Virus record (IMG/VR): IMGVR_UViG_3300035666_000096
Span: 1 to 34,786 of that record
Direction: 5' to 3' (one strand)
Origin: a virus
DNA: 34,786 bases
Part shown: one piece after another, positions 13,367 to 34,786 of the stretch
Numbering within the stretch: position 1 is the stretch's first letter
Layout of the letters: each line of letters opens with the position of its first letter
The notes under the pieces: model-generated
Told to the model about the DNA's origin: nothing
The model's database searches: none
The model's input: the letters and a program-made list of their open reading frames with translations, nothing else
Program-made: the position numbers and the translations under genes

Positions 13367-14503
13367 TTATTTAAAATAATCACCAACCATCCAAGTAACA
13401 ACAGTATAGCGAATTCCTTTTGTAACAGGTTCAACACCATGTAACATAAAAGACGGGAACACAATTACATCGCCTTTGCTTTGTTTTGGATAAAATTTTT
13501 CATGTCCGTTTTGAATAAAGAATTTTCCACCCTCAAAATCATCATTTAGTATTGCTAATACTGTAAGTTTTCTACATTCATTTGAATGTTTATGAACAGT
13601 ATCAGTATGCGCTTCATATTTGCCATCAATTTCATACATTAAAAATTCAGTTTGATTTGAATGTGTAATGCTATATTTCCAAAATTGATTGTTTAGATTT
13701 AATCCTAATGATGTTAGCGTTGCCCCAATCCCTTGATTCATTGGTAATGGTAATCTTTGAACATTGCGAATATCTAAATTAAGATTTTTTTCTCCATCGC
13801 CAATATAAGGCAATTCTTTTTTAACTTCTTTTTTTGAGTATTCAGCAATTATGTTATCGCAAAATTGTTCTGAAACAGCATTTGGAATTGTGTAACCACT
13901 TTCAAAACATTTTTCTTTGTTTGTTTCAGTCCTGCTAATTCCTAAAGATTCGCGCTTGTCGTATTTCCAATCAGCGTATATTCCATTTGCATCAACATAG
14001 TGTAAAAACACTTGCGCTTGCCAATTACCTTCAAAATACGATTCACGCCAATGCCATTTTTCCAAGCCTTTATAAAGAACTGCATCACCAATGCCCATGT
14101 CAATTTTTGTAGGGTTTGTTTTGTCTTTATTGTCGCCCATATAAATAGACCAAACATTACCATCAAACCCTAATGTAATTGTTGCAGATATTTCGCAGGC
14201 TTCCCTATCTACATGAACTTCTAAAACTTCGGTTTGTGTATCATATAAACGCGCATAACTATATGTTGGGTAAAGTTGTTTGCCGCAAGCCTTTTCAAAA
14301 TAGGGCAAACAGTATTCCAATAACTTATCAAAAACTAATTCACCATGAACGCCTTGTGATTTTGGACATTGGTCATCATTGACTGTTTTCTTTTCACTAA
14401 TCAGCCTATGTAATTCATCAATCAATTCATCGCATGAAGTTTTTGGTAAAAAATTCTGCAAGTGAACATACTTATTTTGTTCAAAAAATTCTATTGTATT
14501 CAT
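13367..14503 (-). CDS. Double-domain 2-oxoglutarate/Fe(II) oxygenase
   Basis: 378 residues with two jelly-roll units. N-terminal unit: YSYARLYDTQTEVLEVHVDR with His97/Asp99 as the HxD pair, ISATITLGFDG, and a distal His near 151 (EKWHWRES) before WQAQVFLHYV. C-terminal unit: YEAHTDTVH with His299/Asp301, RKLTVLAILN, GGKFFIQNG, and SFMLHGVEPVTKGIRYTVVTWMVG with His355 and the 2-oxoglutarate-binding Arg365. The second unit is a classic prolyl-4-hydroxylase-like domain. The first keeps the metal triad but has no clear Arg. Such enzymes hydroxylate proteins or small molecules; lying between fibre genes suggests a virion protein or host surface substrate, which is inference. Confidence 0.8.
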   Translation of the reverse strand: MNTIEFFEQNKYVHLQNFLPKTSCDELIDELHRLISEKKTVNDDQCPKSQGVHGELVFDKLLEYCLPYFEKACGKQLYPTYSYARLYDTQTEVLEVHVDREACEISATITLGFDGNVWSIYMGDNKDKTNPTKIDMGIGDAVLYKGLEKWHWRESYFEGNWQAQVFLHYVDANGIYADWKYDKRESLGISRTETNKEKCFESGYTIPNAVSEQFCDNIIAEYSKKEVKKELPYIGDGEKNLNLDIRNVQRLPLPMNQGIGATLTSLGLNLNNQFWKYSITHSNQTEFLMYEIDGKYEAHTDTVHKHSNECRKLTVLAILNDDFEGGKFFIQNGHEKFYPKQSKGDVIVFPSFMLHGVEPVTKGIRYTVVTWMVGDYFK

Positions 14504-19954: not shown

Positions 19955-20637
19955 TATAAAACCGCTTCAAACGCTTTAAAATTGCCGTTCCATGCAATGA
20001 AACTATCATTGGTCATTGGAACTAATGTGTAAGTTGGATATTCACGCAAGATAACGCAAAAGGTTGTGCCTGTAAATGTGCCACCACCTAAAGCAATGGT
20101 TGTTCCATATTGACCAATTACACATTGAACAGGGCTTGTTAGTGCTGTAATCAAATTACGATGAACGGGAATGTTTACGGTTGAACCGCTACCACGCAAC
20201 ACATCGGCGGTTGCAATATAGGCATAACGCCCTACTTGGCAAAAATCGCCTGTGCGAACTATGTATGTGCCGCTTGAAACTGACGGCAATGCCCCTAGAA
20301 CCAATGTTTTATTTGCGCTGGATGTCTGCCATTCACATGAACCAATTTGCGCGTCTGAAAGCCCCCCTTGATAGGCAATATAATTAACCCATCCAGTTGA
20401 ACCAAAATTTAGGTATTGTTCCGTTGCTTTGTCGGCTTCACGCAATGCACTAAGCAAAGGGCGGTTTTGACTATAAAGCAAATATGACATTGGCTTCATT
20501 TCAAAGCCAAATGGTTGAACGGTTAAAATTTCCGATGTGCTTATGCGTTGATTGCGCGATACCACTTGACCAATAAACCGCTGGTCGTTAATACCAACGC
20601 TTTCTGCCACCGATAAAATTGTATTTAATGTTGTCAT
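19954..20637 (-). CDS. Distal/minor tail protein, 227 residues
   Basis: First gene after the tape measure in the transcript, the slot of the distal tail protein or lambda M. Starts MTTLNTILSVAESVGINDQRFIGQVVSRNQRISTSE. Its C-terminal part (GRYAYIATADVLRGSGSTVNIPVHRNLIT and TYTLVPMTNDSFIAWNGNFKAFEAVL) is beta-strand rich. A 1-nt stop/start overlap joins it to the 209-residue protein. No confident family; role inferred from synteny. Confidence 0.65.
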   Translation of the reverse strand: MTTLNTILSVAESVGINDQRFIGQVVSRNQRISTSEILTVQPFGFEMKPMSYLLYSQNRPLLSALREADKATEQYLNFGSTGWVNYIAYQGGLSDAQIGSCEWQTSSANKTLVLGALPSVSSGTYIVRTGDFCQVGRYAYIATADVLRGSGSTVNIPVHRNLITALTSPVQCVIGQYGTTIALGGGTFTGTTFCVILREYPTYTLVPMTNDSFIAWNGNFKAFEAVL

Positions 20638-20643
20638 TTTATT

Positions 20644-22731
20644 CTACCTTGACTGTGGCAAGCCGCGTTGCGCTGATTGATTAGCGGCAAATATAGCGTT
20701 CTTGTTTTTAGCAAGGAATTGAACACCGCTTTGCGTATCAATAGCACTCATGTTTTGGATTACCGTGCCATTATAAACTGTTTGTGGCTGACCGCCCATC
20801 ATTGATGATAATTGATTGTTCGGAATGATTGTGCCTGCTGTGCGTGGAACAAATAATTCTGCGCCGCGTTCGCCAACTAGACTTGGAACACCAACAGGCG
20901 GTGAACCACCATCGGCAAAACCAAGCAATCCAAGCAACCCACCGCCATTGGCAAAATTAGTTGAACTGCTTGTTAAACTAAAGCCACCACCGCCGCCACC
21001 AAGTAATCCGAATATGCCACTCATTTGTGATTGCAGTTGAAATCGCAATAAATCTTTAATCATACTGCTAATTAAATTGCCAAATGAAAGTGTGCCAGTT
21101 TCAACAAATCTATCTAATGCAGAACTCATGCTGTTGGTCATGTTATTAAAAACTTGTGCGCCAATAGCCGCGCTATCCTGTGCGCGTTCAGTAAAGTTAT
21201 TGTATGCTTTATTCCATCCTGCTTGGAAAGTGTTTTGCGCCCTTGTGTTGGCTTCTTCCGCTTCAATGTTATTCATGCTTGCAATAGCAAAGTCATAAAT
21301 TTGTTCGTCAGTCAGCAAGCCCTCTTTTTTCTTATCTAATATGGCTTGTTGCAAATCATAATAACGCAACGCAAGTTGAACTTGGGTGTCGCTTTGACCT
21401 GCCATTTCTTTAGTTAAATTTAATCGTTCGGTGGCAATTTCAAGATTTTTAGTTTCTAATTTATTGGCTTCACGCGCATCCTGTTTAAGTTTGCCTTTTG
21501 CCATTTCATTTTCCATTGATTGCCGTTCATATTCTAATGTGGCAATAGCAATGTCTTTTAACTTGGTTGCATCAATCAATGCTTTAGCACGGGCTGTGCC
21601 TTTTAAATGTTCTAAACTGCCGCCTTTTTCAAACTCTAAATTAAGTTTTTCTGTTTCTGTTAGGGTCTTGCCCATGTTTTCAGTTTCAGATTTAGTCAAA
21701 AGCAATTTGCGTTCTAACGCTTCTTTTTGTTTATTAACTTCGTTAGTTAATTTTTCAGCATCTTTAACTTTTTGCCTGTCGGCTTCCGCTTGCTTGGCTT
21801 CTTTGGTTGCAATGATTTTATCAAGCCTTGCAACTTCGGCTTTACGGGCTTCCGCATCTTTAGCCAATTCTTCTTTTGATTTATATGGGCTTGACCGCGC
21901 ACCGCCAGTAACAGACGCTTGATTTGGTATAACAGAACCAAATTGCAAATCATCTATTGAACCACGCCTGCCGCCAGTTGTAATTCTGTTTTGCAAAACT
22001 TCGCCAAGCGTTAATAAATCTTTTAATGCTTGTTTTGCGGCAGTAAGCATTTGAACAAATCGTTCTGCACCTTGCGCCCATGCTTTAAATGCACCGCCTA
22101 ATTCAACCGCAAAGCCTGCTTTCATATTAATAAAGATGCGGTCTAATATATCAAACGCTTCGCCTGCCTCTTTAAATGCTTTGCCCGTTCCCTCAAACGC
22201 CCCTTTGGTTTTTGCCAAATCATCGTTCATGCCTTTAATGTCAGCACCTTTAATGGCTTTGCCAAAAATTTCCATTGCAGTTGCATTGCGTGTAATTGGA
22301 TTTTCTATTGCGGCAATACTGTTTAGGGTTTTTCTAAACAATTCATCGGGGCTTAATTGCTTGATGTCAGATATTGAAACGCCTAGTTTGGCAAATGTTT
22401 CTTCGGCTTTTTTGTTGCCTTGGCTGGCTTCATCTAGTTTGTTTGATAATGATGAAAATAGTTTGCCTACATTTTCGGCTTCACCACCATTAAGGGTTAA
22501 GGCTGTGGATAATTCTAAAACGGTTTCAACTGCAACTTCATTGGCTTTGGCAACATCATTGATTTGGTCGGCAAACTTTAAAGCGTTCATGCCAGCCGCA
22601 CCCAAGGCTGTGCCAACTACGCCAGCACCAACAGCAAAAGTTTTTAACCCTTGTTGTGCAATGCCTAAGTTTTTGTTGAACTCGGCTGTGTCAAGACCTA
22701 AAACAACGCCTAACCTTGAAATGAGTGCCAT
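20644..22731 (-). CDS. Tail tape measure protein, 695 residues
   Basis: Begins MALISRLGVVLGLDTAEFNKNL, the usual start of prophage tape measures, followed by an Ala-rich helical segment (about 30-60). The middle (about 270-480) is a long charged coiled coil (EARKAEVARLDKIIATKEAKQAEADRQ...). The end holds Gly-rich hydrophobic patches and the SLVGERGAELFVPRTAGTIIPN motif common at tape measure C-termini. At about 1.5 angstrom per helical residue it predicts a tail of about 100 nm. It acts as ruler in tail tube assembly and is probably ejected with DNA. Confidence 0.92.
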   Translation of the reverse strand: MALISRLGVVLGLDTAEFNKNLGIAQQGLKTFAVGAGVVGTALGAAGMNALKFADQINDVAKANEVAVETVLELSTALTLNGGEAENVGKLFSSLSNKLDEASQGNKKAEETFAKLGVSISDIKQLSPDELFRKTLNSIAAIENPITRNATAMEIFGKAIKGADIKGMNDDLAKTKGAFEGTGKAFKEAGEAFDILDRIFINMKAGFAVELGGAFKAWAQGAERFVQMLTAAKQALKDLLTLGEVLQNRITTGGRRGSIDDLQFGSVIPNQASVTGGARSSPYKSKEELAKDAEARKAEVARLDKIIATKEAKQAEADRQKVKDAEKLTNEVNKQKEALERKLLLTKSETENMGKTLTETEKLNLEFEKGGSLEHLKGTARAKALIDATKLKDIAIATLEYERQSMENEMAKGKLKQDAREANKLETKNLEIATERLNLTKEMAGQSDTQVQLALRYYDLQQAILDKKKEGLLTDEQIYDFAIASMNNIEAEEANTRAQNTFQAGWNKAYNNFTERAQDSAAIGAQVFNNMTNSMSSALDRFVETGTLSFGNLISSMIKDLLRFQLQSQMSGIFGLLGGGGGGFSLTSSSTNFANGGGLLGLLGFADGGSPPVGVPSLVGERGAELFVPRTAGTIIPNNQLSSMMGGQPQTVYNGTVIQNMSAIDTQSGVQFLAKNKNAIFAANQSAQRGLPQSR

Positions 22732-22734
22732 TTT

Positions 22735-23043
22735 TTAACCCTTTTTAAACTTGCTTATATCAAACCCTTGCGCCTGTGTCATGTATAACAACAAACTGTC
22801 ATTTGCAGGCATTTCAACATCGTCATAAATATAAGCGTAACTGCTACCAAGTATTGATTTTACAGTATAAGGTGGCGTGTTAGCACCCCTTAAATAATTA
22901 AAAACGCCTGCCGTTAAACTTGCGCTGTTTTGCAATATGGCTTTGTTGCCTATTATTCCATCGGCATACATAACCGTTATTTCACTCATTGTTATTTCAT
23001 CAATTTCGGCAATACTATCTTGCGTGTGTCCGTTAAAAATCAT
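22735..23043 (-). CDS. Second tail chaperone-region protein (possible frameshift product part)
   Basis: 102 residues from the ATG at 23043, starting MIFNGHTQDSIAEIDEITMSEI. It sits between the first chaperone and the tape measure, the place of lambda T in the G-GT pair. The same frame is open upstream through the end of the preceding gene (to about 23094), as expected if it is made as a -1 frameshift extension of that gene. The ATG itself has only a weak ribosome site. Function in tail assembly is by position. Confidence 0.6.
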   Translation of the reverse strand: MIFNGHTQDSIAEIDEITMSEITVMYADGIIGNKAILQNSASLTAGVFNYLRGANTPPYTVKSILGSSYAYIYDDVEMPANDSLLLYMTQAQGFDISKFKKG

Positions 23044-23075
23044 TGCCGCTTTAACTTGCGTTCTTAACGAACCAA

Positions 23076-23096
23076 TTACTTTTGGCGCGTTTCCTT
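23076..23096 (-). other. Candidate -1 ribosomal frameshift region
   Basis: The zero frame ends AAG GAA ACG CGC CAA AAG TAA. The -1 frame is open from 23094 through the start of the next gene without a stop, so slipping within this 19-nt window would fuse both proteins, as in lambda G-GT. No canonical slippery heptamer is visible; A-rich CCAAAAG next to the stop codon is the best candidate. Confidence 0.4.
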
Positions 23097-23555
23097 ATAG
23101 TCGGTGCTGATTGTTTCCCTGATTTTATCTAGGAATTGCAGTTGCACGGCAAACGGAAAATCTTCTTCAATGTCAGCATAGGTTAAATCTTCAAGCGTTT
23201 CGCCAGTTTCAGGAATAAGCAATTTCATATACTCAACAATACCATGTTGAACGCCTGCTTTTGTCTTTGCTGTTTCGCGCATTGAACGCCCATCAACGAC
23301 CACATCATCATCGGTAAATTCAACGCCATCGGCTTTGTTGTCTTTACTGTTACGCAAGTTTTCAGTTATTTGCTGAAATATCTTTTCAACATCATCGGCG
23401 TTTGGGTTTTTGTAATAAGCAAAAATTGCATCTATTTCACCCGAACTTGGCACTCTGACTTTAAATGTATGGTCGCCCATTACAAATGTTCGCGTTAAAA
23501 TTGATAACTTATGTTCCTGATATTTACTGCCTAAAGCATTACTTAATTTACTCAT
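23076..23555 (-). CDS. Tail assembly chaperone, putative (lambda G-like position)
   Basis: 159 residues: MSKLSNALGSKYQEHKLSILTRTFVMGDHTFKVRVPSSGEIDAIFAYY, then a charged middle and LLIPETGETLEDLTYADIEEDFPFAVQLQFLDKIRETI. The VRVPSxxEIDAI and the final helical part are reminiscent of phage tail assembly chaperones placed just upstream of the tape measure. These bind the tape measure and control tail tube polymerisation. Its last codons (CGC CAA AAG TAA) are the likely region for a frameshift into the next frame. Confidence 0.65.
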   Translation of the reverse strand: MSKLSNALGSKYQEHKLSILTRTFVMGDHTFKVRVPSSGEIDAIFAYYKNPNADDVEKIFQQITENLRNSKDNKADGVEFTDDDVVVDGRSMRETAKTKAGVQHGIVEYMKLLIPETGETLEDLTYADIEEDFPFAVQLQFLDKIRETISTDYKETRQK

Positions 23556-23558
23556 GTT

Positions 23559-24143
23559 TTATCCTTTTTGTGTTTTGTTGTATGTCTTTTGTGCAAACTC
23601 ACGCATCTTTTGGTCAAGCGTTATTCTTAATAAATCCGTTACATCCCTAACATTGTTTTCCAATGACATACGCAAAAATGGTTTGGCAGGTCTGTTTGCT
23701 GTGCCAAATTCATTTGCTATTGCGCGTGCATCATAAAAAATGCCTCTATTTTCATAAAACTTTTTTGCCGCTTTTCTATATTTAGTTTTGTCTGAAATAC
23801 TATTGCCGCCTGCATGATATTCAGCATGAAACTTCTTTTTAACTGCCCTTGGAATTGGTTTTGTAGTTACAAATGCAACAACAGAATCGCTTGTTGTAAC
23901 ATACTGCGATTTTTTATCTTTTGATGTTGGTCGGCGACCTGTAATCATTAAAGAATTTTCTAGCAGGTGTGATTCGTTTGATGATGCGCGGTTTTGTGCA
24001 TCGCGCAATACAGGGGTCATTGCCATTTTAACCGCAGGAATTAAAATTTTAGAACGCGCCGTTTTATCGCCTATTTCATTTTGAAAAAGTTGAAAAGCGT
24101 CTAATGTTTCTTTTAATCCCGTTAGTTGATATTTTTGATACAT
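23559..24143 (-). CDS. HK97 gp10-like tail component
   Basis: 194 residues. The start (YQKYQLTGLKETLDAFQLFQNEIGDKTARSKILIPAVKMAMTPVLRDAQNRA) has the GLKE..L and paired-helix pattern of HK97 gp10 family proteins, and the ARAIANEFGTANRPAKPFLRMSLE segment contains their hallmark EFGT...PAKPFLR motif. Proteins of this family lie at the head-tail joining or tail-completion region. Unusually, the gene follows the tail tube gene instead of preceding it. It overlaps the 73-residue gene by 1 nt. Confidence 0.8.
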   Translation of the reverse strand: MYQKYQLTGLKETLDAFQLFQNEIGDKTARSKILIPAVKMAMTPVLRDAQNRASSNESHLLENSLMITGRRPTSKDKKSQYVTTSDSVVAFVTTKPIPRAVKKKFHAEYHAGGNSISDKTKYRKAAKKFYENRGIFYDARAIANEFGTANRPAKPFLRMSLENNVRDVTDLLRITLDQKMREFAQKTYNKTQKG

Positions 24144-24364
24144 TAGTCAGCCTTAATTAACTTTTGATATATGTTGTTGTTTAATGAAACAACATAATCC
24201 ACCACTTCATCGGGCGACATTTTATCGGCATGATTAGCGGCTATTTCATGCGCCAAGTTAATACCTGTTAGGCGTTGTTGTGCAAAGCCAAACCAATTCT
24301 TTTGCCCACTACCTGCTTGCGTTATCAGAAACCCAAGCAGGTCATTCTGCGATTTAATTTCCAT
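24143..24364 (-). CDS. 73-residue protein between tail tube and gp10-like gene
   Basis: Starts MEIKSQNDLLGFLITQAGSG; helical with a conserved-looking core (NWFGFAQQRLTGINLAHEIAANHADKMSPDEVVDYVVSLNN). It lies immediately downstream of the terminator-like hairpin that follows the tail tube gene. No family is recognised. Its place suggests a tail assembly factor or adaptor. Confidence 0.65.
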   Translation of the reverse strand: MEIKSQNDLLGFLITQAGSGQKNWFGFAQQRLTGINLAHEIAANHADKMSPDEVVDYVVSLNNNIYQKLIKAD

Positions 24365-24383
24365 TGTCTTATCCTATAAAGTA

Positions 24384-24403
24384 ACAACCCCTTTCGGGGC
24401 TGT
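24384..24403 (-). terminator. Terminator-like hairpin after the tail tube gene
   Basis: On the minus strand ACAGCCCC-GAAA-GGGGTTGT forms an 8-bp stem (one G-T pair) with a GNRA-type loop, 4 nt after the tail tube stop. It is followed by only a partial T run (TACTTT). Partial termination here would lower expression of the minor tail genes relative to the tube protein, which is needed in many copies. Confidence 0.65.
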
Positions 24404-24407
24404 TTAA

Positions 24408-24902
24408 TTAAGCGTTGTTTGACCAACCAAATTGGTTGCCACGCGGATGAATGGTGAACATACATTTCGCTTCAGCACCTACGCTTGAATCAATTTGAAA
24501 ATTACCAACGCGACCATTGAAAGCGTAATAAATAATGTTTGTGCCATCAGTTGCTGAAATAATAAATGTGCGGTCAATTACGCCTGAATAAGCATCGCCA
24601 CGAATTAACAATAAATTTGCATCGGATGGATTCCATGCGGCAGTTATTGACATTGATGTTGGTGCATTTTGAACAGGTATTTTGTCGCCTGTGCGTGAAC
24701 CAGCAACGCCAAATGATGCTACTGCATCGTCTGTGCCAAAAGCAGGAATGTTTTCTACTGGAACAACATTGGCAGGAATAGCAAGTGCGGCAACGGTAGC
24801 AACTGTTGATAACGCGGCAGTTGCTAATGGTGTTGGGCTTGCAGTTGGTTGCATATATAAAGTTGCGGAAAAGCCGGGTAATACTTTATTTGGTAATGCC
24901 AT
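24408..24902 (-). CDS. Major tail tube protein
   Basis: 164 residues: MALPNKVLPGFSATLYMQPTASPTPLATAAL, then strand-rich VENIPAFGTDDAVASFGVAGSRTGDKIPVQNAPTSMSITAAWNP and DRTFIISATDGTNIIYYAFNGRVGNFQIDSSVGAEAKCMFTIHPRG. The ATDGTNxxYYAFNGRV segment with a following strand pair matches lambda V/HK97-type tail tube proteins. Location between the tail completion and chaperone genes and the hairpin behind it (high-copy gene) agree. Confidence 0.8.
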   Translation of the reverse strand: MALPNKVLPGFSATLYMQPTASPTPLATAALSTVATVAALAIPANVVPVENIPAFGTDDAVASFGVAGSRTGDKIPVQNAPTSMSITAAWNPSDANLLLIRGDAYSGVIDRTFIISATDGTNIIYYAFNGRVGNFQIDSSVGAEAKCMFTIHPRGNQFGWSNNA

Positions 24903-24939
24903 GATAATTAATCCTCATTAAAATTAAAAAAATCGTATC

Positions 24940-25356
24940 TTATGATGGAATGTAAATAGTGCAATCCATGTAAACGCTATGCAAGTTAATGTCATTGTCA
25001 TAACTATTATAAAGCCAATTCACATCGGCTTTTGAAATTTGAAAGCCTGTAACGCCACCAAACTGTCCTGCATAACCATGCAATGCTTGTATTATTGTGT
25101 TTGACAAATTGAATCCATCTGCCATGTTGGTTGTAAAAACACTAATTTGGAATATAGGTGAATCAGCCCCTTTGTTATTCTGATATATACCAGTATAAAC
25201 AGGTTGGTGAACATCCCTTAATTGCCATGTTATAAACTTTGTTTCAGTTGCCCAATTACGATTAAAGTTTGCGTAAACAGGAACAGGCGTTGCAATGCTT
25301 GTTAGTTGCGCCTGTATTGCCCTTGCATAGTTACTAACATTGTTTTGCGTTGTCAT
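24940..25356 (-). CDS. Tail completion/terminator protein, putative
   Basis: 138 residues. The pattern of an N-terminal helix (NVSNYARAIQAQLTSI), YANFNRNWATETKFITWQLRDVHQPVYTGIYQN, then PIFQISVFTTNMADGFNLSNTIIQALHGY and a last strand (SVYMDCTIYIPS) is that of small alpha/beta tail-terminator proteins (DUF3168-like, lambda U position). These cap the tail tube and join it to the head connector. Placed directly before the tail tube gene, as expected. Confidence 0.65.
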   Translation of the reverse strand: MTTQNNVSNYARAIQAQLTSIATPVPVYANFNRNWATETKFITWQLRDVHQPVYTGIYQNNKGADSPIFQISVFTTNMADGFNLSNTIIQALHGYAGQFGGVTGFQISKADVNWLYNSYDNDINLHSVYMDCTIYIPS

Positions 25357-25357
25357 G

Positions 25358-25702
25358 TTAAGCCTTTGTCGCAGGGTCAGAACGGTAACACATTAAAGTA
25401 ACACTCATTCTATCATTGCTTTCAATTACATCTGTTATTCGCCATTCATTACCGCGCCATGTAACGCTGTAATTGTTTTGCCCGTCTGCAACAGTTTTCA
25501 TGTTAGGCGTGTAATTAAATTTCATGCTAATTAAATCAGAATAAACACGATACCGTTCTGTAATAGCAACAGAATTTCTAACTTCAGAAACCAAAGGACG
25601 ACCAACAAACCAAAGTGTTGTGGTTGTTGTATATTCGCCAAAACTATCCACACCAAAACTTAGCGTGTTAATGTTTACATTTTCAAAGCGTGCAATAGCC
25701 AT
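25358..25702 (-). CDS. Head-tail joining protein (SPP1 gp16/head-closure-like)
   Basis: 114 residues, nearly all beta: TTTTLWFVGRPLVSEVRNSVAITERYRVYSDLISMKFNYTPNMKTV then YSVTWRGNEWRITDVIESNDRMSVTLMCYR. The W-x(0-3)G(n)EW(RITDV) ending followed by a strand is characteristic of the head-tail joining family that closes the connector after DNA packaging. It lies between the gp6-like connector and tail completion genes, which is the standard order. Confidence 0.75.
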   Translation of the reverse strand: MAIARFENVNINTLSFGVDSFGEYTTTTTLWFVGRPLVSEVRNSVAITERYRVYSDLISMKFNYTPNMKTVADGQNNYSVTWRGNEWRITDVIESNDRMSVTLMCYRSDPATKA

Positions 25703-25705
25703 TTG

Positions 25706-26356
25706 CTACATCACCAAAGGCTTATATTGTCTAAGCAATACATCCACCCCAAACGGTATTGTTTGTAAAGCCCCAGCCGTTGTTTCGCTTCTGTTGTTAT
25801 ATAGATGCGTAAGCAATAACAACCCTGCTTGTTTGATAACAGGGTATTGCGCCAAAATGCTTGAACTGATTGTATAACTGCAAACAACAGGTGATGTCAT
25901 ATATGTATTAAGGTCAGTTGGCAAATCATTAAGAATCACCTTGTTACCTGTTACATCATAAAAATATGAACTAGCCGCAACGGTTGTTAAAACAGGTGGG
26001 CTTGCATCGCTGTAATACTTAACGCTGTTTATTGTTACGCCATTTTGTGAAACTTCAGGCAAGTCCAATGTTAGTGGTGAACCGTATAATGCTGATTGAC
26101 CATAGTAAACAGTATAAGACTGATTAAAAATTGGTAAGCCTAAATAATCTTCAATGTGCATCCGCACCGCAACTTCTAAATCACTTAAATAACTATCTTG
26201 TGATTCATCGCCAAACAAGTTTAGTTGATTGGTGATTTCATCAAGAGTTAGCCATTGTGTTTGTAAATCGCGGCTTGTTTGAACAACCTTATCATAGTTA
26301 AATGGATTGCGCGTTGGCGCAAGATTTACCACACCGCTAATGTTGTTCGCCGCCAT
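25706..26356 (-). CDS. Head-tail connector protein (HK97 gp6/phiE125 gp8-like)
   Basis: 216 residues. A helical stretch WLTLDEITNQLNLFGDESQDSYLSDLEVAVRMHIEDYLGLPIF matches the N-terminal helices of connector proteins (LxxxK/NxxLxxD...DxxLxxLixaA...iExylG). The middle part is an immunoglobulin-like or beta insert (TLDLPEVSQNGVTINSVKYYSDASPP), and the final helix IKQAGLLLLTHLYNNRSETT is another hallmark. It forms the ring under the portal. The start of the next gene comes 3 nt after its stop. Confidence 0.8.
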   Translation of the reverse strand: MAANNISGVVNLAPTRNPFNYDKVVQTSRDLQTQWLTLDEITNQLNLFGDESQDSYLSDLEVAVRMHIEDYLGLPIFNQSYTVYYGQSALYGSPLTLDLPEVSQNGVTINSVKYYSDASPPVLTTVAASSYFYDVTGNKVILNDLPTDLNTYMTSPVVCSYTISSSILAQYPVIKQAGLLLLTHLYNNRSETTAGALQTIPFGVDVLLRQYKPLVM

Positions 26357-26358
26357 AA

Positions 26359-27399
26359 TTAAACGCCTTTCAAGTAAACACCGGCAAACACATCACGAAT
26401 AGTTGATGCCATACGCATTTCAGCGTAGATGGTAACAAAACCGGCTTGTGTTTGGTCAAAGCGTTTAATGTTCATTGTTTCAGCATCGGCAATAGTTAAG
26501 AACCTATCCCAGTTTGCTAATACTAATGGAATTGCGCCAACGGCAGGTGCATCTAAATACGGATTTGGAATGACTGGGAAGCCAAACATATAACCAACCG
26601 CCGCACCGTCTTCATTACCGGCTTCAATAAACATTGGTGAGCCGCCTGTTGAACTTTTTAATTTACGCAAAGTTGCAATCAATGTTGGGTGTATGTGCCA
26701 TGCCGTTGTTGGCATTGACCAATACTGGGCAGGCAACGCATTAGCAATGTTAGCAATGCTGTCGTATGTTGGTGCAGTTGTGCTTGATTCAATCGTTAAA
26801 ACAGTATGTAACCCGTTGGTAATTGCTGTTCCACTTGTGCCAAATGCGGCGGCTGAAGTGCTGGTTGGGTATGATGTCAACCCACGCAATCCATTTTCTG
26901 CGCCAGTAACTGTGGTTGTTGAACCTGATTGGTCATCATTTACTGCCATTGATGCGGCTTCAATTTGACTAAACTCAAAGGCTAAATCTTCAACAATTTC
27001 TAATTCCAAGCCATTTACATCGCCTAAAACTGCACTACGAATTGGCAACTGTGCTGATATAACACGAACTGGCAACTGCCAAATGCTTGTGTCAATGTTT
27101 GGTGAACCACTATTAGGGTTTACTGTGTAACCCCAAGGGTCTGTTGCATCGGCGGCATTACCGGTCTTAGCAACAAACTGAATGTCTGAACCTGAAATGG
27201 GCATTTGTCTTGCGCCCAAACGGAACGGGTTTGCATAACGCAATTTAGCAAAAGCGTCATCAAAATAGGTGCGACCACCAACATTTGAACCGCTTCCAGT
27301 AATCGCGCTTGCTTCTTTAACAGACTTTAAATCAACGGTGGCTTCACCATCAACTAAGGCGGTCTTTATGCCCTCTAAAACTCTTTCAGCGATATTCAT
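26359..27399 (-). CDS. Second HK97-fold capsid protein lacking the N-terminal scaffold domain
   Basis: 346 residues and clearly related to the larger capsid protein just upstream. Shared blocks include KEASA(L/I)TG(G/S)G, GGRT, YANPFR, KTGNA, DTSIWQ, (Q/L)FPIR, DIDGLE-like, NDDQSGS, GLRGL, (A)LPQYW, GFPV, a W-D-(R/K)F(L/Y)TI motif, RRFDQT-like, and the terminal (T)xRDPFAGV. It lacks the about 115-residue delta domain that precedes the first block in the paralogue; only about 28 residues precede KEASA. It is preceded by a terminator and lies just before the connector. It may form capsid vertices or mix with the main protein; alternatives are a decoy or minor capsid. Confidence 0.8.
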   Translation of the reverse strand: MNIAERVLEGIKTALVDGEATVDLKSVKEASAITGSGSNVGGRTYFDDAFAKLRYANPFRLGARQMPISGSDIQFVAKTGNAADATDPWGYTVNPNSGSPNIDTSIWQLPVRVISAQLPIRSAVLGDVNGLELEIVEDLAFEFSQIEAASMAVNDDQSGSTTTVTGAENGLRGLTSYPTSTSAAAFGTSGTAITNGLHTVLTIESSTTAPTYDSIANIANALPAQYWSMPTTAWHIHPTLIATLRKLKSSTGGSPMFIEAGNEDGAAVGYMFGFPVIPNPYLDAPAVGAIPLVLANWDRFLTIADAETMNIKRFDQTQAGFVTIYAEMRMASTIRDVFAGVYLKGV

Positions 27400-27419
27400 T
27401 TTGGTGTGTCCTTTAGGTT

Positions 27420-27452
27420 AAAAAAAGGGCGGCGATTTGTTTCCACCGCCCT
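27420..27452 (-). terminator. Intrinsic terminator between the two capsid genes
   Basis: On the minus strand AGGGCGG, a 13-nt loop, and CCGCCCT form a 7-bp stem followed by seven T residues (27420-27426). It lies 14 nt after the stop of the first capsid gene. The start of the second capsid gene is only about 20 nt further on with no visible promoter, so partial read-through must supply the downstream genes. Confidence 0.85.
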
Positions 27453-27465
27453 AAAGCCTAATTAC

Positions 27466-28815
27466 TTAGTTAGCGGCTGTGCCTGTTGAACGATAACGAA
27501 CACCAGCAAACGGGTCGCGAACAGAAGTTGCTAGTCGTTTTTCACCAAAGAATGTGATAAAGCCAGGCAATGTTTGGTCGTAACGACGCAATACCATGTT
27601 CAAGCGGTCAACGATTGTGTAGAACTTATCCCAATCGCCAAAGAACATTGGATATTTGCTAACTGTGCCAGCCGCGCCAGTTGTTAGTTGTGATGGGGTG
27701 TCTAAGTATTTGTTGACAACAACATCAAAGCCTAACAATGAACCAACAATGCCGTCTGTGCGTGATAAGCCATCAACATAGATTGGGCGACCGTTTGTAT
27801 CAGTTAAACCACGAATTGCTTGTAACAAGATTGGTGAAACAACAAATTTTGCTGATTCTGTCCAGTATTGTTGTGGCAATGCGTAAACAAAGTTAATAAC
27901 ATCTTTGTATGCAATGTTGTTTGCGCCAACTGTGTTTGCATTGGTTGTTAATTGGTCATAGGTAGCAAGTGAGTGTAAACCTGTTGCTGAACCTGTGCCG
28001 CTTGAACCAAATGCCGCAGTTGAACAAGTGCCGCCTGTATAGGTTGCATTTGCGCCTGCATATTGGTCTAAACCGCGCAAGCCATCAGCACCACCAGTTG
28101 CAACTGTTGTGCCTGAACCAGTTTGGTCGTTGTTTGAAATCATAGATTGCGCTTCAGTTTGTGCAAACTCAGCAAGCATATCATCAACAACATTGGCTTC
28201 TAAACCATCAATGTCATCCAAAGCGGCTGTTCTGATTGGGAATTGAACATTTAGGTCTTTTAAAACAATTTGCCAAATGCTTGTATCTTCAGTTGTTGCC
28301 GCGCCGTTGTTTTGTATAGCGTAACCGAACTGCGCACCAGCATTGCCGGTTTTTACGCGGAATTGATATGAAGAACCGTCAGTTGCTACTGTGCGGCAGA
28401 TGCCACGCAATGGGTTAGCCAAACGCAATGAAACAAATACAGGGTCATAGGCTGTGCGACCACCTTGGTTGTTACCGCCGCCGGTTAAAGCAGACGCTTC
28501 TTTTAAATATGCTGAATAATGACTTTCGTCTTCAAACATTTTTAGTTCTTTTTCGGTGCGACCATTTTCTTTGTGGAATTTGGCTAGTTGTTCTTTAACC
28601 ATTTTGTTTACATCGCCACGAATGGTTTTTTCAATTTTTAAGATTGAAGGTGCTGGGTTAATAGATGCAACTTTGGCTTCCAAAGCGGCTACTTTTTCAG
28701 AAAATGAAACTTCAACCGCTTCAACTTTAGCAGTTACGGCTTCAGTTACTTTTGCAATTTCAGCAATGTTATTTGCTTCAATCGCATCTAACTTTTCAAT
28801 GATTTCTACTGACAT
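27466..28815 (-). CDS. Major capsid protein, HK97 fold with N-terminal delta domain
   Basis: 449 residues. Residues 1-110 are highly charged and coiled-coil-like (VEIIEKLDAIEANNIAEIAKVTEAVTAKVEAVEV..., KEQLAKFHKENGRTEKE), the scaffold-like delta domain cleaved by the S78 protease encoded next door. From KEASALTGGG on, the chain follows the HK97 mature capsid pattern, with QGGRTAYDPVF, NPLRGICR, DTSIWQ, DGLRGLDQY, LPQQYW, GSLLGFDVVVN, DWDKFYTIVDR and the terminal RDPFAGVRY. Position after protease and portal is standard. A strong terminator follows, matching high demand. Confidence 0.9.
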   Translation of the reverse strand: MSVEIIEKLDAIEANNIAEIAKVTEAVTAKVEAVEVSFSEKVAALEAKVASINPAPSILKIEKTIRGDVNKMVKEQLAKFHKENGRTEKELKMFEDESHYSAYLKEASALTGGGNNQGGRTAYDPVFVSLRLANPLRGICRTVATDGSSYQFRVKTGNAGAQFGYAIQNNGAATTEDTSIWQIVLKDLNVQFPIRTAALDDIDGLEANVVDDMLAEFAQTEAQSMISNNDQTGSGTTVATGGADGLRGLDQYAGANATYTGGTCSTAAFGSSGTGSATGLHSLATYDQLTTNANTVGANNIAYKDVINFVYALPQQYWTESAKFVVSPILLQAIRGLTDTNGRPIYVDGLSRTDGIVGSLLGFDVVVNKYLDTPSQLTTGAAGTVSKYPMFFGDWDKFYTIVDRLNMVLRRYDQTLPGFITFFGEKRLATSVRDPFAGVRYRSTGTAAN

Positions 28816-28818
28816 GAT

Positions 28819-29619
28819 TTATCCTTTGATTCGTTTATTAAGTTGTTTTAACAATTCACGCTTATTTAATTCGGCTAGAATCGTTTCATTAACCGCCGCG
28901 TCTGATTCACTCAAACTTGGTGGCGTTTCAACAGTTTCATTACTTGCATCACGCAATTTAATTACTTTGTTGAAGATGCTAGATGCGGCGGTTGCGTGCA
29001 TCTTAGTCAATCCTGCATCACGCAGAACAGATTCTATTTCTTTAAGGTTAATTGTGCCGTCAGCGCGATAAACATTTTCTAATTTGTTTATGTTGGCTTC
29101 AGGATTGTTTGGGTGCATGACAATAGACACTTCGCGCAAGCCACCTTTGGTAATTTGGAAGTAACCCTCATCATAAGCAGGGTCTTGTGGGTTCATAACT
29201 TCATTATTAGCGTTTACCATTTGATATTCATCGGCGTATGCGCCAACTGAAACACCACCAACCATGTTTGGCGACTCTTTCATAATGGTATATAGGTCGC
29301 GACCAATAGTTGTATTGGTAAACAAACGACCTTTGCCAGTCATGCCTACATCGTCAAACTCAAACATAGTCCATTCGCCAACCGGCAAAGACTCATCGTT
29401 ATGTTGAAAATACATTGGCAACGGTTTGCCCATTTCGGCGTAACTTGCCGCCCATTCTTTAAATGCTTCAGGCTGATAGTTAAAACGCCTGCCGTCTGCA
29501 CCCTCGCGTGCGCCCCATGTTGTCAAAACGGCTTCAATTGTTCCGCACATTTCGGCTTCATCGGCACTCACGCCTAAAGCGACTTCGCTTTCATAAAAAA
29601 ACTTAACATCTTTAGCCAT
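28819..29619 (-). CDS. Prohead maturation protease (peptidase S78, HK97 gp4-like)
   Basis: 266 residues. GTIEAVLTTWGAREGADGRRFNYQPEAF (about 26-53) is the typical N-terminal strand region. Catalytic candidates are His73 in YFQHN and Ser124 in VGGVSVGA, with an acidic residue near 163 in LREVSIVMHPNNPEA. The C-terminal about 85 residues are helical and variable, probably self-cleaved. It removes the delta domain of the capsid protein encoded 3 nt downstream. Confidence 0.9.
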   Translation of the reverse strand: MAKDVKFFYESEVALGVSADEAEMCGTIEAVLTTWGAREGADGRRFNYQPEAFKEWAASYAEMGKPLPMYFQHNDESLPVGEWTMFEFDDVGMTGKGRLFTNTTIGRDLYTIMKESPNMVGGVSVGAYADEYQMVNANNEVMNPQDPAYDEGYFQITKGGLREVSIVMHPNNPEANINKLENVYRADGTINLKEIESVLRDAGLTKMHATAASSIFNKVIKLRDASNETVETPPSLSESDAAVNETILAELNKRELLKQLNKRIKG

Positions 29620-29746
29620 GAATAATAACCCCTTTGTTTTTCATACCGTTTGTTTTAAGCGGCATTGTAACGCGCTTGTCTGCCGCTTTTTTCATTTGAA
29701 CGGTTAATAATAATAATCTTAATTCTTTCAACTCTTTTTTTGTCAT
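29612..29746 (-). CDS. 44-residue basic peptide between portal and protease
   Basis: The ATG overlaps the portal stop in TAATG and the stop overlaps the protease start, so it fits exactly between two essential genes. The sequence starts MTKKELKELRLLLLTVQMKK and is followed by KTNGMKNKGVIIHG: basic, with one amphipathic helix. Tight coupling on both sides is the main support. Function unknown; a small assembly factor is possible. Confidence 0.55.
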   Translation of the reverse strand: MTKKELKELRLLLLTVQMKKAADKRVTMPLKTNGMKNKGVIIHG

Positions 29747-31155
29747 TATGCTTTGCCTGCTTGACCGGTTTTGCCAACGCTTGATGTGTTGCCGCCGCCG
29801 CCAGTATCTTGTGGCGAACTGCCTGCAATCGTGCCTGCCGGTTTGCCTGTGTCTTTTAGTGCGTTTGCGCCCTCAATTTCAGCCCTGCCAAGGTATGCAC
29901 GCGCTTCATTGGGCGTTAATATTCCGTTGTTGACACCAGCCACTACATAATTCATTTGGTCAAGCGGTGCGCCGCTTAAAAACGATTCTGTTTGAAATTC
30001 AACGCATAGATTTGGATAACCTTGCAATAAACTTTGTTTCAGTTTTTGTTGAATGTTTACCAGCATCGGGAAAATTGTTGATTTATAAAATTCATCAAGC
30101 ATAGTTTGGCTGTTGTTAAATTTGCCGTCTTCAATGGATAACATTGCAACTGGCACACCAAACAAACCGCATATACGCTTCATTGTTTGCATTTTAAGGT
30201 TGGCGCAATCAGCGTCTTGCAAGTTAAGCATATCAATCGGCAAGTATTTCATGCCGTTATCTAACAACATGGACTGCCCAGGCTTGCTTAGGTCTGTTGG
30301 GCGTGAACCCGTCATACTTGACCACGCTTCTTTAAGCCTTGCCGCTATTTCCTTGTATTTTGTATCAGGAATAACTTGGTCTGTGACAAACATACCACTT
30401 GGTTTTGCCCCATTGGTCATTATAAAGTTGGCATAAAGGTCAATGTCTTGGTCAAGCGATACTAATTCAACCGCCAAAATGCCTTTATTGAAACCTGCTG
30501 AACCTTGCCATGCCGCTTCTTTCAAATGCATAACTTGATGTGCTTGTAATGGCGCGTCTTTACTAAAACCGTATGATGGCGTTGCAAGCCTGTATGTTGG
30601 ATAACGAGTTGGCGTTATTGTTGCTGTAATAAGCGTGCTGTCTAATACATACATTTCCAATGGTGTTTGTTGGCTGTTCTCTTGGTCTTTACGCCATAGA
30701 ACGGTAAACACTTCACCTGATAGGTCAAGCCACATACAGAATTGATACCAAAATTCGTATTGGCTTTGAAAATGATTAGGGGCTTGCAATAATGCTAAAA
30801 CGGATTTTGCTTTTGCTTTATCGCGTGCCGTAACTTTATCGCTTAAACAAGCATCAACTAATGAACCATCATCGGTTGTTGCCATAATTTTAATGGGTAA
30901 TTGTGCAAGTGCGCGTGCTTTAACGCCTACGCAGGACATAATAGTTGAATTTCGGCTTAAAACCGACATATCCACCAAGCGACCGGCTTCATTGGCACTT
31001 GATGTTGTTACATATAATAATTGGCTTGATGATGCGTATTGTTTTGCACCGGCGTTGCGAATAACATTATTACCAAGGGCAGTTTGTCCAAAAAGCGTGT
31101 TGCTTTCGTTTGCGTTTGCCTGTGGTTTTCTTTTGAAGATATCTAGAATTGCCAT
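29746..31155 (-). CDS. Portal protein (HK97 gp3-like)
   Basis: 469 residues. Hallmarks: SVLSRNSTIMSCVGVKARALAQLPIKI (about 63-90), ALLQAPNHFQSQYEFWYQF (about 125-145), HQVMHLKEAAWQGSAGFN, LEMQ-like LQDADCANLKMQTMKRICGLFGVPVAML (about 320-345), and the C-terminal GILTPNEARAYLG. These match the HK97-type portal family that forms the 12-subunit DNA entry ring. The Gly/Ser-rich final about 30 residues are disordered. Sits 9 nt after the large terminase gene. Confidence 0.92.
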   Translation of the reverse strand: MAILDIFKRKPQANANESNTLFGQTALGNNVIRNAGAKQYASSSQLLYVTTSSANEAGRLVDMSVLSRNSTIMSCVGVKARALAQLPIKIMATTDDGSLVDACLSDKVTARDKAKAKSVLALLQAPNHFQSQYEFWYQFCMWLDLSGEVFTVLWRKDQENSQQTPLEMYVLDSTLITATITPTRYPTYRLATPSYGFSKDAPLQAHQVMHLKEAAWQGSAGFNKGILAVELVSLDQDIDLYANFIMTNGAKPSGMFVTDQVIPDTKYKEIAARLKEAWSSMTGSRPTDLSKPGQSMLLDNGMKYLPIDMLNLQDADCANLKMQTMKRICGLFGVPVAMLSIEDGKFNNSQTMLDEFYKSTIFPMLVNIQQKLKQSLLQGYPNLCVEFQTESFLSGAPLDQMNYVVAGVNNGILTPNEARAYLGRAEIEGANALKDTGKPAGTIAGSSPQDTGGGGNTSSVGKTGQAGKA

Positions 31156-31164
31156 GTTAATCCC

Positions 31165-32823
31165 TTATAAACTACGGAAACCGTATGATGATGAAGCCAA
31201 GGGATTATCAAGTGAACAATGCATTGCAATAATCAGGGCAATAATGCCATCAACCTTTGCTGATTTATCCGCTTCGTTCTTACGCACCTTGATGTTCCCG
31301 TTTACATCTTCATAAACTTCGCAGTTGCCTAATTGCCAACCAACAAATGGGTTGCCATCATGTCTTATGAATTGCGACATCACCAGTTTTTCTATGTGCT
31401 TGGATGGGTTACTTAAAACCGCCATTCCTTGCCCAACCTTTTTAACCGGTATGCCAGCATCGTGTAAACGCGCAATTAAAGATGCGGCGTTATATGCATC
31501 ATAGCCAACTTCTTTTATGTTGTAAAGTGTTGCTTGACTTTTTATATAATCGCTTATTTCGCGGTCATCCATTACATTGCCCTCAGTAATGTGCAATATG
31601 CCGGAACGAACGGCTTGGTCAAATATGTCGCGGTAATGCGTTGGCACTAAAGCCAGCCCATCTTCAGGCAAGAAAAACTTAAACTCGGCATAGTAATCTT
31701 CGTTGCTATATCTTTTAAGCGTGCAAACAGCGTTTAAATCGCGTGTTGCGGCAAGGTCAAAGCCTATAAACACCGATTCCGGTTCGCCTTTGCTTTCACC
31801 AACGCTGTTATCCCAGTATTGCCTATCAAGCCATGCGCTGTTAGCAGACACATAGACATTAAGCGTTTTGCATAAAAATTCATTTAGTGCGGCTGGTTTA
31901 AGTTTTGCTTGTTCGCACCGTTCGGCAATCGCTTCCTGATAAATGCTAATGCCATGCATAGGGTTGGCTTTTGCCCATGTTGTCGGGTCGCGCCAATCGT
32001 CTTGTGGGTCAAGCCCATATAACAAGCCAAACCAATGTGGGTTGTCTGCGGCATCGCCATTTAGCATTGATTCATACATTTGCATATCTTCATAAAATTT
32101 TGTGTCTTTTGAAAATGATGCTGTTGTAATATAAATGCGTAATGGATTTTTACGGGCAACCATACCTGAATGGATAACCTCAATGCTATTCCTGTCAACA
32201 ATTTGGGCGGCTTCATCCACTATGGCGCAACTGGCGTTTTTACCATCGCCTGATTTTTTATTGTCACGCGATAAGGCTTTAAACATAGATTGCAAATCAT
32301 TAGCCTTTTTAATCTCGTATTTGCTAACATCAAAAACATTTTTAACTTCAGCCGGCATATTTTCAACAAAACCTTTGGCGGCATCAAACACAATGGTTGC
32401 TTGTTCTCGGTTAGTCGCTAATGTAAACACTTCAGCACCGGCTTCACCAAACTGCAATTCGTAAAGGCTTATGCCTGCGGTAAATGTTGATTTGCCTGCT
32501 TTGCGCGGAATGAAAATAATGACATCCGTTACCATTCGTTTTTCATGGTCTTTTTTACTACGAAAACCATAGATTGCACAAATAGCAAAGATTTGAAAGG
32601 GTTCAAGTATTAACGGCTTGCCGGCATCTGCGCCTTTGGTATGTTTTAGTGTAGCAAAAAATTCCAGCACATGGTCAACATGGTCGGCAACAAACTCATA
32701 CTGCCATTGCTTATCTTCAAGTTGATTTAAAAATCGCTGGCAAGCCAACTTAACATTATTGCAAACAGGCGTGTTGCCTTTTACAACATCTATTGCATAA
32801 AAAATACCATCTTCTAATTTCAT
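31165..32823 (-). CDS. Large terminase subunit
   Basis: 552 residues. The ATPase domain has a Walker A-like PRKAGKST (106-113), Walker B AIVDEA (200-205) and a coupling IYITTAS (230-236). The nuclease domain has Asp356 in IGFDLA, Asp442 in VGYDAYN and Asp525 in VDGIIALIIA, an RNase H-like acidic triad. The R-x-K-A-G-KST variant of Walker A is usual in this (Terminase_1) family. It packages DNA into proheads; start overlaps the small subunit stop by 4 nt. Confidence 0.95.
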   Translation of the reverse strand: MKLEDGIFYAIDVVKGNTPVCNNVKLACQRFLNQLEDKQWQYEFVADHVDHVLEFFATLKHTKGADAGKPLILEPFQIFAICAIYGFRSKKDHEKRMVTDVIIFIPRKAGKSTFTAGISLYELQFGEAGAEVFTLATNREQATIVFDAAKGFVENMPAEVKNVFDVSKYEIKKANDLQSMFKALSRDNKKSGDGKNASCAIVDEAAQIVDRNSIEVIHSGMVARKNPLRIYITTASFSKDTKFYEDMQMYESMLNGDAADNPHWFGLLYGLDPQDDWRDPTTWAKANPMHGISIYQEAIAERCEQAKLKPAALNEFLCKTLNVYVSANSAWLDRQYWDNSVGESKGEPESVFIGFDLAATRDLNAVCTLKRYSNEDYYAEFKFFLPEDGLALVPTHYRDIFDQAVRSGILHITEGNVMDDREISDYIKSQATLYNIKEVGYDAYNAASLIARLHDAGIPVKKVGQGMAVLSNPSKHIEKLVMSQFIRHDGNPFVGWQLGNCEVYEDVNGNIKVRKNEADKSAKVDGIIALIIAMHCSLDNPLASSSYGFRSL

Positions 32824-33296
32824 TTTTTCGTTACTTTAACGCCAGCCAATAAACTGCCATAAGTTGTATCGCTTGATGTGCCTTTTCTATCAAATTGACT
32901 TTTAGGTGTTAAGCCCAACTCGTTCATCAAGACTACAATCTTGGCAAGCGAGTCTTTCATAACGCTAACATAAGGGTTTGCGCCCATCGTTTTGCCGTTG
33001 TTGAATGTTGTCACAATGCCGTTTGTTCTAATCCCTTTTTTGCATCGTATATACATTGTCATTTGGTCGGCAAGCATTTGCAAGATATGGCGGTGTTGTT
33101 CAGAACCTATGCCGTATGTTTCCCAAAGAAAATCTGATGTTTCACGAATGAATCGTTTTTCATCCCAATCGTCAGGGCTGTCAATCCATTCTGAAAATGG
33201 AATGCGCTTGCGAACACTTTCAGGCAATACCGAACCTTGGTTTAAACCTTTAGTGCCGCGAACAATGTGTAATTCGGGTGGCAATTTATTTGACAT
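32820..33296 (-). CDS. Small terminase subunit (P27 family)
   Basis: 158 residues from the ATG at 33296, preferred to an in-frame ATG at 33311 because GTAGGAA lies at ribosome-site distance before it. The C-terminal GANPYVSVMKDSLAKIVVLMNELGLTPKSQFD closely follows the P27 small terminase pattern (NPxxxxxxxxxxxxxxxxxElGLTPxSR). The N-terminal half is polar and includes a helical segment likely for DNA recognition. It recognises phage DNA and passes it to the large subunit. Confidence 0.85.
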   Translation of the reverse strand: MSNKLPPELHIVRGTKGLNQGSVLPESVRKRIPFSEWIDSPDDWDEKRFIRETSDFLWETYGIGSEQHRHILQMLADQMTMYIRCKKGIRTNGIVTTFNNGKTMGANPYVSVMKDSLAKIVVLMNELGLTPKSQFDRKGTSSDTTYGSLLAGVKVTKK

Positions 33297-33304
33297 GGCT
33301 ATTC

Positions 33305-33379
33305 CTACCAATGATGTATGACATTAATAATTAAAACTATATCCGCTATTGCGGCAAGCAAAAGTATTATCCATTTCAT
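33305..33379 (-). CDS. 24-residue membrane peptide
   Basis: ATGA overlap with the methyltransferase stop, then MKWIILLLAAIADIVLIINV and a short HHW end. Nearly the whole chain is one hydrophobic helix. The stop lies 9 nt before the small terminase start, and the peptide reading frame includes that gene's ribosome site. It could be a real peptide or only a translational coupler; function unknown. Confidence 0.4.
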   Translation of the reverse strand: MKWIILLLAAIADIVLIINVIHHW

Positions 33380-34641
33380 TCTTTCAACAATTCCGCTTTT
33401 TTCCCAGTAAATTCTTCCCAGCGTTGAACAATCACATCGCAGTATTTAGGGTCTAATTCCATGCCAGCCATTATTCTGCCCATCGTTTGGCAAGCAATTA
33501 AATTGCTACCTGAACCTAAAAACAAATCTACGACGACATCATTCTTTTTTGTAAAGTATTGCAATGCTTTTTGGTTTACTTCTACTGGCTTTTGCGTTGG
33601 GTGCATATATGATGATGTGTTATCTTTGCTAACTTTCCAAACGGTTTGCCCATCAATCATCTTTTCTAGAATGGTAACCAATTCTTCTTTTTTTACTTTA
33701 TTAATATATTGCTTTTGTGCATCACCTTGATATTCCCACATCGTTCCAATTCTGCCGGTTTGAATTTCATTGCCGCGATTCACAACCAATGCCATCTCAA
33801 AATCGGTAGCCAAGGTTTTAAGGCAATCGCCCATGCCGCCGCCACCTTTATGCCAAACAATAAGATTTGTTATTTTTTCAAATTCTTCTTTAATTCTTTT
33901 TATCCATTCATCTACCACTTGGTATGATGTCCACATAAAAAAGAAGCCGTTTGTATATTTTTTGGCAAGCCCAATGTAATCCAAGAACACATCGTCATTT
34001 TTAATCATTCCGTATTTATATGATTTTGGGTCGTATGCAATTCCGTATGGTGGGTCGCTAATACAATGCATAGTCACATCATGGAATGGTTTTAGCAGTC
34101 TTTTAACATCGGCTTCTTTTGTGCTGTCACCACAAAGCAACCTGTGTTCACCTAATAAATATAAATCACCATGTTTTGTTTTGGCTTCAACAGGTGTTTC
34201 GGGAACTTCATCTTCGTCAGTCAGACCTTCTTCTAAATCAGGGTCGGTAAACTTTTTAAGTTCGCTTTGATTAAAGCCAATGATGTCTATGTCAAATCCT
34301 GCGTCTTGCAAATCCATTAATTCAACGCCAAGCAATTCTTCATCCCAGCCGGCATTCAATGCCAATTTATTGTCGGCAATAATGTAGGCTTTTTTTTGCA
34401 TTTCAGTTAAGCCATCAAGTTGAATGGTTGGCACTTCTTTTTCGCCAAGTAACTTTGCGGCTTGCATTCTGCCATGACCGGCAATGATTCCATTTTCGCC
34501 ATCAAGCAACAACGGGTTAGTCCAACCAAATTCTTTTATGCTTGCGGCAATCTGTTGCACTTGGTCAGGGCTGTGTGTCCGGCTGTTATTGATGTATGGA
34601 ATTAATTCATCAATTTTTTTATATTCAATTTTTAATTTCAT
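33376..34641 (-). CDS. ParB-like domain fused to a DNA methyltransferase
   Basis: 421 residues. N-terminal domain (1-100) is ParB/sulfiredoxin-like: LIPYINNSRTHSPDQVQQIAASIKEFGWTNPLLLDGENGIIAGHGR (GHGR 55-58), then a helical part. An acidic linker (about 130-155) leads to a methyltransferase with catalytic DPPYG (196-200), a TRD-like middle, HPTQKP (347-352) and the AdoMet-binding FLGSGS (374-379). DPPY placed before FxGxG is the beta-class order, so methylation of adenine N6 or cytosine N4 is expected. Located upstream of the terminases, it may protect phage DNA or mark packaging/replication sites. Confidence 0.9.
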   Translation of the reverse strand: MKLKIEYKKIDELIPYINNSRTHSPDQVQQIAASIKEFGWTNPLLLDGENGIIAGHGRMQAAKLLGEKEVPTIQLDGLTEMQKKAYIIADNKLALNAGWDEELLGVELMDLQDAGFDIDIIGFNQSELKKFTDPDLEEGLTDEDEVPETPVEAKTKHGDLYLLGEHRLLCGDSTKEADVKRLLKPFHDVTMHCISDPPYGIAYDPKSYKYGMIKNDDVFLDYIGLAKKYTNGFFFMWTSYQVVDEWIKRIKEEFEKITNLIVWHKGGGGMGDCLKTLATDFEMALVVNRGNEIQTGRIGTMWEYQGDAQKQYINKVKKEELVTILEKMIDGQTVWKVSKDNTSSYMHPTQKPVEVNQKALQYFTKKNDVVVDLFLGSGSNLIACQTMGRIMAGMELDPKYCDVIVQRWEEFTGKKAELLKE

Positions 34642-34786
34642 GTCTTATCCTTTTTTAAAAATGGTGGAAGCGTATCGGTGCTGAACTCCGACCTTGCCTT
34701 TAAAAACGCATCAGCCTGCGTATCACGCTTCCGTAAAATTTTGACTACCCCTATCTCAAACTCAGTTTGCGCACGATTGTGTTCCC
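34638..34786 (-). CDS. Partial gene at the right edge, C-terminal 48 residues
   Basis: Open from the window edge to a TGA overlapping the methyltransferase start (ATGA). The visible part (EHNRAQTEFEIGVVKILRKR, then ADAFLKARSEFSTDTLPPFLKKDKT) is charged and helical. The 4-nt coupling supports a real gene. No family can be assigned without its N-terminus. Confidence 0.5.
   Translation of the reverse strand, partial: EHNRAQTEFEIGVVKILRKRDTQADAFLKARSEFSTDTLPPFLKKDKT

Follow-up and report, generated by a model that had tools for sequence, protein, structure and literature searches.

The fused-scaffold phages of the HK97 type are the textbook case in which one capsid protein forms both the hexamers and the pentamers of the shell. 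In HK97 the delta domains assemble into trimeric coiled coils, each hexamer around the portal having two such towers, and a single weakly connected density lies under each pentamer (PMC10275583). For a dedicated vertex paralogue there is precedent in T4 and in a satellite. The pentamers at the T4 vertices consist of gp24, a paralogue of gp23 with a propeptide of 10 residues compared to 65 for gp23 (PMC9958956), while in phi12 with SaPIbov5 the pentamers consist of Ccm, in which the delta domain has 87 residues compared to 128 in the phi12 capsid protein (CP), Ccm by itself being unable to build shells (PMC8569155).

The window, by which is meant the whole stretch of DNA analysed, is a 34,786-base virus record with a head module of standard type on the minus strand, in which a long (MCP-L, hereafter L) and a short (MCP-S, hereafter S) capsid gene stand in tandem. 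This two-capsid-protein module is real, old and obligate, and belongs to small aquatic phages of a widespread lineage. A description of the pair was not found in the open-access literature and, going by that literature, an HK97-type fused-scaffold module with the scaffold in one paralogue only appears to be new. The features of the locus are as follows:

25706-26356, minus strand: head-tail connector (gp6-like/Ad1), directly 3′ of MCP-S (PF05135, 23.2 bits; PHROG_40)
26359-27399, minus strand: MCP-S, short HK97-fold capsid paralogue and proposed penton (vertex) protein, 346 aa (PF05065; PHROG_10 'major head protein')
27316-27399, minus strand: N-terminal segment of MCP-S (residues 1-28), an amphipathic helix MNIAERVLEGIKTALVDG... 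in the place of the delta domain
27409-27414, minus strand: ribosome-binding-like AAAGGA 5′ of MCP-S, with AGGA-type sites at the same spot in relatives
27426-27452, minus strand: intrinsic-terminator-like hairpin AGGGCGGTGGAAACAAATCGCCGCCCT with a T run, between MCP-L and MCP-S
27466-28815, minus strand: MCP-L, long HK97-fold major capsid protein with an N-terminal delta-like segment, 449 aa (PF05065; PHROG_10)
28501-28815, minus strand: N-terminal segment of MCP-L (residues 1-105), delta-like scaffold with predicted helices at 2-52, 65-82 and 97-111
28819-29619, minus strand: prohead protease, Peptidase_S78 (PF04586, 43.6 bits; PHROG_80)
29746-31155, minus strand: portal protein (PF04860, 195.9 bits)
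31165-32823, minus strand: terminase large subunit, TerL (PF20441, PF03354)

The genes for the S78 prohead protease, portal and TerL lie upstream of the pair, with the gp6-like connector and a lambda-type tape measure downstream. The initial annotation had described two tandem paralogous capsid genes in a module with an S78 protease and a portal, and this was borne out, the coordinates being exact, the two genes adjacent and their similarity far beyond chance, and the PF04586 and PF04860 genes lying upstream. L and S align by BLASTP at 253 bits (E 3e-85) with 40% identity over 344 aligned columns, starting at residue 27 of S and residue 104 of L and opening at a (K/R)EASA motif (KEASA in the window). 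Every one of the ordered blocks that had been listed as shared was found, and most are kept in relatives. Elsewhere on the minus strand, a gene at 13367-14503, among those for the tail fibre, encodes a protein of 378 aa bearing a 2OG-Fe(II) oxygenase domain (PF13640), and a DNA methylase (PF01555) with a weakly ParB_N-like N-terminal stretch adjoins the packaging genes at 33376-34641.

Both proteins match the Phage_capsid family PF05065 above its curated cut-off of 24.2 bits, L with 98.7 bits in the genome search and 103.5 bits by hmmscan and S with 70.7 and 71.1 bits, respectively, and the match is also found in 36/36 aligned relatives of L and 33/36 of S. An AlphaFold2 model of S from 36 aligned sequences (pLDDT 68.5, pTM 0.69) was compared with known structures using Foldseek and VIA-align, the best PDB match being the RcGTA capsid protein (Z 19.2 over 234 residues) followed by other HK97-fold capsids including cf-PICI EcCI2 (Z 18.4) and HK97 prohead I (Z 15.1). 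Structure prediction had been put forward as a check on the fold of the 346-residue protein, and the fold predicted is that of HK97. The model of L was poor (pLDDT 49.7), such that its membership of the capsid family rests on Pfam; its top Foldseek matches were RcGTA capsid chains, and its quality did not support matching its domains to those of S.

The two proteins differ most plainly ahead of the (K/R)EASA motif, where L has about 105 residues and S and its relatives only 27-37. L has the fused-scaffold layout, with a predicted helical N-terminus of about 100 residues, the S78 protease gene upstream and a protease-capsid interval without a separate scaffold gene. In position and character its N-terminal 105 or so residues are predicted to match the HK97 delta domain, with pLDDT in the model at 60-71 for residues 1-50 and lower beyond. 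This delta-like segment is missing from 37/37 S proteins compared. The earlier claim that the short form lacks the delta domain is therefore correct, to which can be added that S has a short conserved N-terminal segment of its own, helical at residues 3-17 in the model and with a consensus of roughly M-x-I-x-E-(K/R)-I-L-x-G-I-K-x-A. As such the start of S does not coincide with that of the mature core, which this segment precedes. The best ungapped score of the S helix against any part of the L delta segment was reached by 307/500 shuffles, and S is not claimed to carry a delta remnant. The position ahead of EASA is variable in relatives and not always basic, which blurs the predicted cleavage site near this motif. 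Beyond the N-terminus, three 8-residue stretches of L are missing in S, the loops of which are consistently shorter. Between the window and two related loci (L008 and L010), identity falls to 36-68% over residues 200-300 of S, compared to 84-96% over most of the remainder of S and about 94% for L, and this divergence in the A-domain may reflect block exchange or fast change.

Scans of IMG/VR, two of them based on S and one on an L profile, returned 226, 362 and at least 567 related stretches, respectively. The first locus set comprised loci fetched by S together with P19250A, the window and five contigs from metagenome-assembled genomes (MAGs). L was followed by S in 154 of these loci, with 12 others ending at a contig edge just upstream of S and one further record, Venkman, being unrelated. 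Of a second set, 70 new loci retrieved with L and in part overlapping earlier contigs, 66 had L followed by S, the remainder being two contig ends and two frameshifts. One frameshift breaks S (L231) and the other the N-terminal region of L (L180), these being either assembly errors or decaying copies. These counts answer the suggestion that the pair be sought in phage genomes: among the loci of both sets there was no intact locus with a single member, and the L and S pair is obligate.

Only one cultured relative was found. P19250A, a Methylophilaceae phage (KX815270), was the sole match at E 1e-5 in 50,697 phage records, with the pair at 4600-5988 and 6066-7124 and with 63.0% (L) and 64.7% (S) identity to the proteins of the window. 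In this genome L is annotated as 'gene transfer agent capsid protein' and S as 'hypothetical protein'. Venkman (MT375522), described as similar to or syntenic with P19250A, has no homologue of L or S and carries a podovirus-type module. In a profile search for prophages in 369 host genomes of one class, a single distant match (E 7e-7) was seen aside from the starting MAG. Relatives of L occur on five MAG contigs, which may be phage contigs in bins, and at one locus (L088) the contig with the same phage module had been assigned to the archaeon Candidatus Nitrosotalea, probably through a binning error.

Phylogenetic reconstruction from 37 proteins of each kind separated all L from all S by a single long branch (support 100). 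When five other phage capsid proteins were used as an outgroup L and S came out as sister clades, the stem of S being the longer and the rooting less than certain owing to the long branches. No other known sequence is close to either, the next phage matches scoring at most 54 bits compared to 253 bits between L and S. Since L and S are reciprocally monophyletic sisters with no other known sequence near them, the duplication origin proposed in the initial annotation is upheld, and the simplest reading is that the gene was duplicated in tandem long ago, at the root of the family. Selection on the two genes had likewise been suggested as a check, and across 484 non-independent pairs the median pairwise dN/dS was 0.14 in L and 0.085 in S, well below 1 in both, such that both genes are under purifying selection. 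The L and S distance matrices correlate at 0.69, a value similar to that with the portal, protease and connectors; there is thus no sign of special co-evolution between L and S.

The hairpin at 27426-27452, which was absent from the initial account of the pair, is the strongest of 17 terminator-like sites in 20000-34786. All of the 140 distinct loci compared have a G+C-rich hairpin in the L-S interval, with differing stem sequence, and a strict test for hairpin plus T run was passed by 122/140 of the L-S intergenic stretches compared to 5/700 shuffles, 1/153 stretches after S and 2/129 before L; these counts, like those for codon bias, are taken over loci related to one another. Codon bias, an indirect indicator, is stronger in L, with C-ending two-fold codons at 0.52 in L and 0.41 in S (L higher in 34/37), CGY among arginine codons at 0.89 and 0.71 (35/37) and ATC for isoleucine at 0.47 and 0.28 (32/37). 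The hairpin between the genes and the stronger codon bias of L together suggest, from the nucleotide sequence, that L is made in excess and that S belongs to a lower-copy class. Terminators after the capsid gene are also found in phages with a single major capsid protein, being annotated after gp5 in HK97 and recognisable as hairpins in SfII and Azospirillum phage Cd, so the terminator speaks for high L and lower S without identifying a vertex protein, and the notion that it proves a vertex role was dropped.

Membership of both proteins in the capsid family, the keeping together of the pair, selection on both genes and the conservation of the signals for lower S expression are established. Among the roles suggested earlier for S, that of a pentamer protein appears to fit best, by analogy and by the expression signals. 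It is probable, if some way from assured, that the phages of this lineage build an obligate two-protein HK97-type shell in which the hexamers consist of scaffold-bearing L and the pentamers, at the 11 vertices without a portal, of scaffold-less S. L with its fused helical scaffold would provide the hexamers and the scaffold at the portal vertex, and S, as its diverged sister, would fill the eleven pentamers as gp24 does in T4. S fits the vertex pattern because of its short N-terminus, shorter loops, lower-expression signals and obligate pairing. The neighbouring S78 protease would trim both proteins near the shared (K/R)EASA motif, and the 27-37-residue segment of S may dock it to the scaffold or the protease. 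S may have lost the scaffold because the towers of HK97 are three-stranded with two per hexamer (6 = 2 x 3), an arrangement that five subunits could not share. A genome of about 35-41 kb belongs to the T=7 size class of HK97, and a T=7 shell would be expected to contain about 360 L to 55 S. A bolder proposal is that in these widespread small tailed phages with two capsid proteins S sets the number of scaffold domains, the size or closure of the shell then depending on an L:S ratio fixed by the terminator; this would be a long shot.

An unlikely alternative, although the one to be taken most seriously, is mixed co-assembly, in which S would enter hexamers and pentamers with no fixed places and so dilute the scaffold domains or tune stability. 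Irregular tiling by two HK97-fold paralogues has been documented in the encapsulin of Streptomyces lydicus (PMC12407261), and L and S, still 40% identical, have N-arm, spine-helix and A-domain positions conserved in common. The split between them is however deep and the loops of S are consistently shorter, and in T4 and phi12/SaPIbov5, the two tailed-phage systems whose second capsid protein has diverged, the places are fixed. Less likely again is that S, as the preferred pentamer or in a special ring, sets an isometric size; S would sit at the vertices, as it does in the favoured reading, but its purpose would be curvature. Ccm alone converts the phi12 capsid from prolate to T=4 isometric by occupying the pentamers (PMC8569155), but Ccm is derived from a parasite, whereas S is phage-encoded and kept in all intact relatives, and therefore no alternative shell is indicated. 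It is highly improbable that S serves off the regular lattice as a capsid-fold head component of low copy number, for instance around the portal or connector. The S gene does lie between the terminator and the connector genes and is therefore probably expressed with the connectors, but S retains the blocks of the E-loop, spine helix and P-domain on which lattice contacts depend. To our knowledge no HK97-fold protein acts as such an off-lattice part. Finally, the possibility that S represents a second capsid gene that is redundant or in decay, to which the frameshift at one locus (L231) might point, is nearly refuted by conservation, given the retention of S in all other intact loci and its low dN/dS.

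Should the assignment of S to the pentamers be true, this aquatic lineage of at least 567 IMG/VR stretches would represent a second, independent solution of the T4 kind, reached in a small and simple phage, and the gene called 'hypothetical protein' in the cultured P19250A would gain a function. It would also open to testing why a different protein may be needed for pentamers and whether a scaffold is undesirable in them.

Among the known systems that come close, P19250A has the same L and S pair, with the second gene annotated only as hypothetical. HK97 gp5 and RcGTA Rcc01687 are alike in fold, capsid family, gene neighbourhood and prohead protease, with HK97 gp5 also sharing the fused delta domain of L, but in both a single protein forms the hexamers and the pentamers. 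The two-component Family 2B encapsulin of Streptomyces lydicus likewise has adjacent HK97-fold shell genes in kept synteny, but its shell is without genome, scaffold or protease and its tiling is irregular.

The phi12 CP and Ccm resemble L and S in being HK97-type with a fused delta domain and in having a diverged second protein with a shorter delta in the pentamers. Ccm is however satellite-encoded, changes the shape of the capsid and is 24% identical to its partner, whereas L and S are both phage genes and S lacks a delta domain of comparable length. In T4, gp23 (hexamers) and gp24 (vertex) are, like L and S, paralogous HK97-fold proteins in one genome with the shorter propeptide on the vertex protein. 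A terminator-like hairpin follows gene 23 ahead of segD and 24, and the order 20-21-23-terminator-24, with segD between, matches the portal-protease-MCP-terminator-second capsid gene order of the window. T4 differs in its separate scaffold gene 22, its protease gp21, its large prolate head and the approximately 20% identity of gp23 and gp24, whereas the phage of the window has a scaffold fused to L, a protease of the S78 type, a genome of about 35-41 kb and 40% identity between L and S.
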